64,000 nucleotides of DNA from Armatimonas rosea (GTDB lineage: Bacteria > Armatimonadota > Armatimonadia > Armatimonadales > Armatimonadaceae), in NCBI RefSeq assembly GCF_014202505.1, contig NZ_JACHGW010000003.1, positions 867,998-931,997 on the forward strand. The letters run 5' to 3'. Each line of letters starts with the position of its first letter. Within the stretch, counting starts at the first letter, position 1. Below, piece by piece: positions 58,393-62,310 of the stretch. The translations under genes and the position numbers were made by a program. Below the pieces are notes generated by a model, which saw only the letters and a list, made by a program, of their open reading frames with translations, made no database searches and was not told the origin of the DNA.

Positions 58393-59747
<1,355 letters not shown>

Positions 59748-59748
<1 letters not shown>

Positions 59749-60149
59749 TACTGTCCTTGTACGGAGTTAGGAAGGTTAAGGGCGTTGCCCACGCGGCCCG
59801 GAAGCGCGGTGGGGCTGGTCACTTCGCCCGTCTGAGGGTTGTACTGGAGCGGCTGCTTGCTCACCGAGTCGATCAGCATCTCGTCGGTGACCCCGTAGCG
59901 CTTGAGCTCCTGGAGGTTGGCGGGCAGGCGCTCCTCGTTGTCCATCTTGTACATCGTGATGGCCTGCTGGATCTGGGAGACATAGCTAATGGTCCCCACC
60001 TGCTGTGCCCGCTGTTTGGGGGCAAGAGTCGGCTTGCCCGAGGCATCTTTCCCGCCCCCGGTCAGGCGGGGGATCACGATGGCGGCGAGGATGCCGATGA
60101 TGACAATCACCACCAGGATCTCAACCAGCGAAAACGCGCGTCGTCTCAT
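59748..60149 (-). CDS. GspG-like type II secretion pseudopilin, inserted in the acc operon
   Basis: This 133-residue protein has a prepilin leader (MRRRA) and FSLVEILVVIVIIGILAAIVIPRLTGG, with Glu at position 5 of the mature protein. The residue before the cut is Ala where Gly is usual. The C-terminal part, SYVSQIQQAITMYKMDNEERLPANLQELKRYGVTDEMLIDSVSKQPLQYNPQTGEV, resembles GspG but lacks a clear calcium loop. It lies between accB-like and accC with 0-1 bp spacing, which is unexpected for a secretion gene. Confidence 0.88.
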
Positions 60150-60560
60150 CTAGCTAGCCTCCGGGGTGAGCTCGATCAGGGCCTGGCCGTACTCCACGGG
60201 CTGGCCCTCCTCGACAAGAAGCGCTGCGATTGTCCCCGCAATCGGGGCCTTGCAGTCGCTGAGAAGATGCATCGTGTCGATCTGCCCGAGGGGCTGCCCG
60301 GCCTTGACCTTCTCCCCAACAGCGACACGGGCAAGGTGAAAGACTCCCACGTGCTCGGCAGTCACAAAGCTCGGCTTGGGAGCCTGGGAGAGAGCGGTGC
60401 CTCCCTCGCTAGTGCTGGCGACCGCCGCAGGAGCGACAGTAAGGGCCGGCGGGTTGCGCCGCATCCGCAGGGTCGCGCCCTCGTGACGGACCTCGATCTC
60501 GGTGAGCTTTGGAACCGCTCCAAAGAGCGCTGCAAAGCCTTCGATCTGTTCGTGATTCAT
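60150..60560 (-). CDS. accB: AccB-like biotinyl/lipoyl-domain protein lacking the biotin-accepting lysine
   Basis: This 136-residue protein has the AccB layout: an N-terminal helical part (NHEQIEGFAALFGAVPKLTEIEVRHEGATLRMRR), an Ala/Pro linker and a C-terminal biotinyl domain VGEKVKAGQPLGQIDTMHLLSDCKAPIAGTIAALLVEEGQPVEYGQALIEL. The conserved AMKM/AMKL is TMHL here: His replaces the Lys that carries biotin (codon CAT against AAA/AAG, two changes). The protruding thumb of AccB is also missing. It therefore cannot be biotinylated there. It may be a regulator or scaffold like plant BADC proteins. It adjoins the pseudopilin gene and lies 9 bp after the 379-residue gene. Confidence 0.85.
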   Translation of the reverse strand: MNHEQIEGFAALFGAVPKLTEIEVRHEGATLRMRRNPPALTVAPAAVASTSEGGTALSQAPKPSFVTAEHVGVFHLARVAVGEKVKAGQPLGQIDTMHLLSDCKAPIAGTIAALLVEEGQPVEYGQALIELTPEAS

Positions 60561-60569
60561 GATAATGGT

Positions 60570-61709
60570 CTAAATTTTCTTCGTGAAGATACACCACTCG
60601 ACAACCTGGAGCGCCTTGGAGATGATCATCAGGGAGAACGCTCCCACCAGCGCCCACTGCACGGGATCGCTGGGGCGGGTGAGCTTCAGCCCGCTCTCCT
60701 GGCTACTGGCAAACGAGAGCTTAGCCGCAAGATGCTCAATCCCCGACATGCTCGCGGAGATCCCCATGCGCATCAGAGGAGCAAAGAGCACACACAGTGC
60801 CAGGGTCACCACGATGGTGATGGGCATGATTATCTTGTATTTCTCGGACTGGTGGTCGTTGTAGATCACGCAGTTTCGGCAGCGCTCGGCCTTCTGTGCA
60901 TCGGTGAGAAAGACCTTCGCGGCTGCCGAGGTCCCCGGTGCCGAGGGGTTGGCGTAGTTGTACTGCGACGCGGGAGCCATCTCAAGCTGGACGCCGCCCT
61001 GCTGGCTCTTGCCCGCGGCGGCATTGACGATATCCTGCTCGCAGTAGCACCCGCGGCGCTGGCGCCAGCAGGCATCCCGCTTTTGGTAGATAGGGCAGTG
61101 GGGGCGGACCCAGTCGCGACAGTAGTTGCCCTCCCAGCACTTTCCAATGAGTGAGGTGCGCAGAGGCTTTTGCTCACGCTTCGCCCCCGCCCCGAGCTGA
61201 AGCCCGGCGGTCTCGGTCTCGGCGCCGCGGCGCAGGACTGCCCCGGTGAACTTGGCGATAATATCGCGTACTACCAGGATAAACCCAATCGCCCCCGGAG
61301 CCATCGCCGCAAAGGGAAAGGCTTCGAGTGCCTTGGCAGTACCAATGGACGCCTTCTCTCCACCCAGCATGGGGAAGAGAAAGGGGAGCCCCAGCCCCAG
61401 TAGCGCTGCGGCGATCAGCAGGACATAGCCCGCGAGCTCCTCAAACCAGAAGAGAACCGCGACACAGACCGCGCCAACCCCCAGCCCGATTGTCATTGCC
61501 TTAGCAGCCAAGGCGATATTGCCCAGCATGATGTTTTGCTTGGCAACATCCCAACTTGCAAAGCCCCCCAAGCCCACAAAGACGCCGTAGAGCAGGTAGG
61601 CAAGCCCAAGCCCTGCGACGACAAATGCGATCGTCATTGCCAGGTTGATAAAGGCGTAGACAACAGGGGGAATATAGACGCCGCCCTCGTCGGACTCTTC
61701 TCTGCTCAT
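60570..61709 (-). CDS. Cys-rich multi-helix membrane protein, unknown
   Basis: This 379-residue protein has three or four N-terminal helices (YAFINLAMTIAFVVAGLGLAYLLYGVFVG, MTIGLGVGAVCVAVLFWFEELAGYVLLIAAALLGLGLPFLF). A cytoplasmic-like Cys cluster follows (KCWEGNYCRDWVRPHCPIYQKRDACWRQRRGCYCEQD, then ERCRNC). Two C-terminal helices end the protein. The Cys spacing could bind zinc or Fe-S. The family is unrecognised. It lies between efp and accB-like and is probably in the same operon. Confidence 0.75.
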   Translation of the reverse strand: MSREESDEGGVYIPPVVYAFINLAMTIAFVVAGLGLAYLLYGVFVGLGGFASWDVAKQNIMLGNIALAAKAMTIGLGVGAVCVAVLFWFEELAGYVLLIAAALLGLGLPFLFPMLGGEKASIGTAKALEAFPFAAMAPGAIGFILVVRDIIAKFTGAVLRRGAETETAGLQLGAGAKREQKPLRTSLIGKCWEGNYCRDWVRPHCPIYQKRDACWRQRRGCYCEQDIVNAAAGKSQQGGVQLEMAPASQYNYANPSAPGTSAAAKVFLTDAQKAERCRNCVIYNDHQSEKYKIIMPITIVVTLALCVLFAPLMRMGISASMSGIEHLAAKLSFASSQESGLKLTRPSDPVQWALVGAFSLMIISKALQVVEWCIFTKKI

Positions 61710-61749
61710 GAGGAACTCTCCTTGCTACCGTCTCTACCAGAATCTTAGA

Positions 61750-62310
61750 TCAGGACTTCACGCGCTCCAGGTAGCTATCGGTGCGTGTGTCGATCTTGAG
61801 CTTGTCGCCAACATTGATAAAGAAGGGGACCTGTACCACCACACCCCCCTCCACTGTCGCAGGCTTAGACCCACCCGAAGCAGTGTCGCCACGCACACCG
61901 GGATCGGTCTCAATGACCGCCAGCTCCATAAAATCCGGGACATTGACCTGAAGGATCTGCTCTTTATGCGAGACGGCCTGAACCTCCATGTTCTCCTTCA
62001 TGTACTTTGCCTGCGCGCCAATGACCGTGGCAGAGACACCGATCTGCTCAAAGGTATCCATGTCCATCAGGAAGTACTCACCGTCTTGCTCGTAGAGGTA
62101 CTGCATTGGCTTGCGCTCCAGGTAGGCAGCCTCCATCTTCTCACCGGCACGCCAGGTCTTGTCGAGGGTGCGTCCCGTACGCAGGTTCTTGAGGGTCGAG
62201 CGCACAAAGGCACCACCCTTACCTGGCTTGACATGCTGAAAATCCACAATGGTGTAGATATCGTTATCGTAGATGAGAGAGAGGCCGTTGCGGAAATCGC
62301 TGGTATCCAA
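61750..62310 (-). CDS. efp: Elongation factor P
   Basis: This 186-residue protein has the three EF-P domains: SDFRNGLSLIYDNDIYTIVDFQHVKPGKGGAFVRSTLKNLRTGRTLDKTWRAGEKME, EYFLMDMDTFEQIG and GDTASGGSKPATVEGGVVVQVPFFINVGDKLKIDTRTDSYLERVKS. The modifiable lysine is K31 in PGKGGAF (E. coli K34). It helps ribosomes through polyproline. The start is TTG 62310 with AAGGAG 8-10 nt upstream. A TATAAT -10 lies at 62340-62345. Confidence 0.96.
   Translation of the reverse strand: MDTSDFRNGLSLIYDNDIYTIVDFQHVKPGKGGAFVRSTLKNLRTGRTLDKTWRAGEKMEAAYLERKPMQYLYEQDGEYFLMDMDTFEQIGVSATVIGAQAKYMKENMEVQAVSHKEQILQVNVPDFMELAVIETDPGVRGDTASGGSKPATVEGGVVVQVPFFINVGDKLKIDTRTDSYLERVKS

Follow-up and report, generated by a model that had tools for sequence, protein, structure and literature searches.

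Acetyl-CoA carboxylase (ACC) is the enzyme that commits carbon to fatty acids, and little is understood of how its heteromeric form assembles and is regulated. The 64,000-nucleotide stretch of the Armatimonas rosea genome analyzed here (the window) raises the question of why an operon that encodes the biotin carboxylase AccC would also encode an AccB homologue lacking the lysine that accepts biotin. Our analysis indicates that this protein, hereafter AccB', probably belongs to ACC as a non-catalytic subunit with a structural or regulatory role, of a kind so far described only in plant plastids.

The open reading frame of AccB' lies exactly where an earlier, sequence-only reading of the window had placed it (Table 1), and the losses described there, of the biotin-accepting lysine and of the thumb, are both real. 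The biotin site reads GQIDTMHLLSDCK, with DTMHLL where E-A-M-K is expected, and the histidine at the position of the lysine is encoded by a minus-strand CAT codon that is, as that reading had stated, two base changes away from the lysine codons AAA and AAG. The EEGQPVEYGQALIEL end is present. Four residues (HLAR) replace the thumb, which in the genome's canonical AccB comprises eleven (YRSPAPGAPSF).

Table 1. Positions of AccB', its parts and the neighboring genes in the window
Feature	Position	Strand	Evidence
accC, acetyl-CoA carboxylase biotin carboxylase, 451 aa	58393..59748	(-)	passes ACC models TIGR00514 and NF006367
Prepilin-like (GspG-like) protein, 133 aa, between AccB' and accC	59748..60149	(-)	profile matches; operon-conserved
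AccB' (Lys-less AccB-like protein), 136 aa	60150..60560	(-)	ORF list, profile matches, AF2 model
Barrel-sandwich (biotinyl-type) domain of AccB', residues 64-133, thumb deleted	60162..60371	(-)	AF2 model, superposition, alignment
EEGQPVEYGQAL segment of AccB', residues 117-128, contains VEYGQ	60177..60212	(-)	alignment
CAT codon, His98 of AccB', at position of biotinylated Lys (E. coli AccB K122)	60267..60269	(-)	
N-terminal helix (residues 3-15) and beta-hairpin (21-26, 29-34) of AccB'	60459..60554	(-)	AF2 model; aligns with E. coli AccB N-terminus
Cys-rich membrane protein, 379 aa, next gene upstream of AccB'	60570..61709	(-)	operon-conserved
efp (elongation factor P), conserved upstream neighbor	61750..62310	(-)	sequence and conserved neighborhood

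AccB' is homologous to AccB, beyond chance. A profile of its relatives matched the E. coli BCCP (4hr7_B) over its full length (E = 8.7e-39), and AccB' itself matched Pfam Biotin_lipoyl at 3.5e-11 and the BCCP model TIGR00531 at 6.6e-14 with 52.7 bits, under the curated cut-off of 115.2 bits, which many Lys-bearing AccBs of the same survey also miss. The AlphaFold2 model (mean pLDDT 89) shows the hairpin region (3-34) and the barrel (64-133) joined by a low-confidence linker, and its barrel superposes on 1bdo with a TMt of 0.83 and an rmsd of 1.2 A. Measured against a BCCP, AccB' has the full-length AccB homology and the fold, and lacks the thumb, a score above the TIGR00531 cut-off, and, as the feature by which a BCCP is defined, the biotin-accepting lysine.

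The gene is retained in the acc operon, as had been claimed, within a tightly packed minus-strand block (58393-62310) in the order efp, membrane protein, AccB', prepilin-like gene, accC. AccB' had also been described as lying beside accC; the two share the operon, but they are not adjacent, since the prepilin-like gene intervenes. This gene order is conserved over Armatimonadota.

The A. rosea genome (6.3 Mb, 98% complete), searched by family, contains, about 258 kb away from AccB' (C3:669724-670158), a canonical AccB with IEAMKVFSE and a full thumb. This is the second accB with AMK for which the sequence-only reading had proposed a genome search, and its presence rules out that AccB' is the sole AccB. 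An accA is present, as is another biotin carboxylase, which differs in type and has a separate BCCP next to it. The operon accC is the only ACC-type one of the two biotin carboxylases found, which makes its product the expected partner of the canonical AccB as well as of AccB'.

Operon and canonical copies of AccB were gathered from about 65 Armatimonadota genomes. In a tree of 146 rows, built on a short alignment, the two kinds of copy formed separate groups with small exceptions, and both groups followed species relationships; they are two old paralogues. Every canonical copy has the lysine (63/63). The operon copies (n=66) carry at the biotin site K in 26, R in 17, G in 13, H in 3, S, N, and T in 2 each, and D in 1, so that 40/66 are Lys-less. 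When the operon-copy tree was built with the biotin-site columns left out, Lys status needed at least 11 changes (bootstrap range 11-11; shuffled mean 20.7), at least 6 of them forced by starred branches; the short-domain tree has no readable root or loss order. The lysine has been lost repeatedly in the operon copies. A Lys-bearing AccB was found elsewhere in the genome for 36 of the 40 Lys-less rows, the other 4 being incomplete assemblies or not searched, and for 26/26 rows with a Lys-bearing operon copy.

Lysine-bearing copies in sister species had been named as a sign of local error or decay. In the window's own family, every readable operon copy is Lys-less, with Arg or Gly at the site and His only in A. 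rosea; the other species of the genus has Arg, and other families of Armatimonadota retain the lysine. Sequencing error or local decay as the cause of the loss is ruled out by the Lys-less state of the whole family together with the selection described below. A special role of the histidine is not supported: R, G, N, S, T, and D occupy the same site elsewhere, which excludes His as a functional residue, and with Arg in the sister species and no conservation at the site, no conserved role can be assigned to His as such.

Lys-bearing operon copies, too, have a short or missing thumb, which makes thumb loss a more general trait than Lys loss. In the 26 Lys-bearing operon copies, the lysine forms part of a conserved motif, ESMKLMN, where biotin may still be attached; the operon copy of such species could then be a second BCCP, possibly giving two biotinylated BCCPs in one cell. 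Thumbless Lys-bearing copies with ESMKLMN (L017, L020, L163, L155, and others) are found in genomes that encode a canonical AccB at another locus.

The Lys-less operon copies are under purifying selection. In the pair G012/G013, both Lys-less and unsaturated at a pS of 0.14, pN/pS was 0.13 for AccB', 0.33 for the canonical copy, and 0.03 for accC; in the window pair (G000/G008), AccB' had a pN/pS of 0.46 at near-saturated pS, and identity was 56% for AccB', 76% for the canonical copy, and 95% for accC. These pN/pS values and identities describe a protein that is constrained yet fast-evolving. The conserved positions of the two paralogues also differ. Lys-less operon copies retain the N-terminal helix-hairpin, and their C-terminal barrel is conserved as well, including VEYGQ..L (V98, E85, Y75, G90, Q82, and L90%), the counterpart of VEFDE-L at 146-152 in E. 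coli; canonical copies have lost this motif, with V97, Q52, A29, G81, D35, and L97% at the same positions, and instead conserve Tyr92, Pro97, and Lys122. Such complementary conservation is, we infer from the alignments, what splitting the ancestral AccB duties between two subunits would leave.

Lys-less copies also occurred in two further phyla of our survey, Chloroflexota and Spirochaetota. In Chloroflexota related to Thermogemmatispora, the copies are mostly efp-linked and have N or R at the biotin site; the Spirochaetota copies are linked to efp, accC, or both and show G, H, N, or Q. These copies may be orthologues of the armatimonadote copies or may represent separate losses. A Lys-bearing AccB was found elsewhere in 31 of the 35 Chloroflexota and Spirochaetota genomes followed up, counting a contig-edge fragment in G460, and was not found for G546, G491, G473, and G462. 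The operon copies examined in the three phyla all have an open frame. The Spirochaetota arrangement is efp-AccB'-accC, without matches to the membrane-protein or pilin-like genes. No accC was seen in the fetched flank of the Chloroflexota efp-linked copies, so the link with accC does not extend to all groups. At the Chloroflexota loci L044, L047, and L217-L220, the gene after efp encodes a Lys-less AccB in which Asn occupies the site.

Among known systems, the formal analogy to plant BADC drawn in the sequence-only reading is sound: a Lys-less AccB homologue accompanies a Lys-bearing BCCP that belongs to the same ACC. BADC, a protein of the plastid heteromeric ACC, likewise lacks AMKL and coexists with a functional BCCP; it binds BC and BCCP, has been argued to be an assembly "glue" joining BC to BCCP, and has been called unique to the plant enzyme (PMC11926652). 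AccB' is likened to BADC by the latter's description, no plant BADC being named among the PDB matches of the profile; unlike BADC, it is bacterial, is encoded in an efp-accC operon, and belongs to an orthologue group within which the lysine was lost several times. With bacterial AccB/BCCP (TIGR00531, 4hr7_B) it shares the N-terminal helix-hairpin, linker, barrel, and an efp-accB-accC type of order, but not the biotin-accepting lysine, the thumb, or a score above the curated TIGR00531 cut-off. Like BC1 of Chloroflexus aurantiacus with its fused BCCP (8HZ4), it has the N-terminal BCCP beta-hairpin, which in BC1 bridges BC dimers into a more active tetramer even in the absence of the biotin core and is thus separable from it (PMC11077971); unlike AccB', that BCCP is fused to BC and biotinylated. 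AccE-type subunits of acyl-CoA carboxylases, with a proposed non-catalytic assembly role (cited in PMC3199775; similar subunits in PMC11926652), are comparable by description only and, unlike AccB', are not described there as AccB-like. No report of a bacterial Lys-less AccB was found in the searched literature, which covers few subscription papers; a gap of this kind is plausible, since BCCP phylogeny was expressly outside the analysis of PMC3199775.

We therefore consider it fairly likely that AccB' is a full-length AccB paralogue, unable to carry biotin, that serves as a non-catalytic, AccC-organizing subunit of ACC, a reading favored by the Chloroflexus hairpin tetramer (PMC11077971) and the glue argument for BADC (PMC11926652). 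AccB' would be made together with AccC, would bind it through the N-terminal helix-hairpin and the conserved C-terminal barrel face, and would help to organize or tune the AccC-AccB complex, with the canonical AccB, encoded elsewhere, performing the biotin chemistry. If this AccC binding holds, AccB' would work like BADC. Counting against a subunit are the evolutionary rate of AccB', faster than that of its neighbors and above expectation for a tightly packed core subunit, the 26 Lys-bearing operon copies, and the Chloroflexota copies near which accC was not seen.

Under the classical view of BADC as an inhibitor, which is also the model of the sequence-only reading, AccB' would take the AccB sites on AccC and lower activity when abundant. 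The shared fold, the location in accC's operon, and the missing lysine agree with this alternative, as does the competition model stated for BADC (PMC7712654), but the opposite conservation of the two paralogues is not called for by pure competition, and NMR data of BADC have been argued not to fit inhibition (PMC11926652); we regard it as unlikely. The complementary conservation fits a scaffold at least as well as competition, and we consider a scaffold more likely than a competitive inhibitor, as a preference and not a result.

Somewhat less probable again is a transcriptional autoregulator, in which the N-terminal part of AccB' would repress or tune its operon (efp to accC), as accBC of E. 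coli is autoregulated by the AccB N-terminal domain (reviewed in PMC3896788). The retained helix-hairpin would suit such a role, but an N-terminal regulator would not need the barrel, which is also conserved in Lys-less copies. A role unrelated to ACC, with AccB' as a barrel-sandwich adaptor for the neighboring membrane and pilin-like proteins, draws on the gene order kept over the phylum and on weak matches of HlyD and RnfC barrel models to AccB'; the Spirochaetota operons without matches to those two neighbors, and the retention of the full AccB architecture including the N-terminus, make it more doubtful still. That AccB' is a decaying leftover of a replaced accB would explain the variable site residue and fast evolution, but it is already largely refuted by the open frames in three phyla, pN/pS values well below 1, and the roughly 75-98% conservation of VEYGQ in Lys-less copies, and is very improbable. 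Biotin ligases are specific for the lysine of the beta-hairpin, and the idea that AccB' is a cryptic carrier biotinylated on another lysine is the least credible of all: Lys84, Lys86, and Lys104 lie within the domain, but none of them is conserved. In Chloroflexus, moreover, K553A abolishes biotinylation (PMC11077971).

Beyond A. rosea, we incline slightly towards the broader view that ACC in at least three bacterial phyla pairs a catalytic AccB with a non-biotinylated paralogue and splits their duties between the thumb and biotin on one side and AccC-organizing surfaces on the other, that is, a BADC-type subunit encoded in acc operons. If true, non-catalytic BCCPs would not be a plant invention, and a BCCP would have been retained for something besides carrying biotin. 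The role of BADC as glue or inhibitor is disputed, and a bacterial counterpart encoded with accC would make the question testable in simple systems, with the many natural variants with or without the lysine helping such tests.

Some features of the surrounding genes deserve mention in their own right. The canonical accB is located apart from the other acc genes, with hom and a threonine-synthase-like gene immediately downstream (L208 4429-6198). In most Armatimonadota operons a prepilin-like gene separates AccB' from accC; why an acc operon should include a pilin is not obvious. The 379-aa membrane protein gave no Pfam or NCBIfam match; across 10 aligned sequences, C191, C197, C205, C214, C221, C223, C277, and C280 are invariant together with a histidine, and these eight cysteines and the histidine suggest a metal site.
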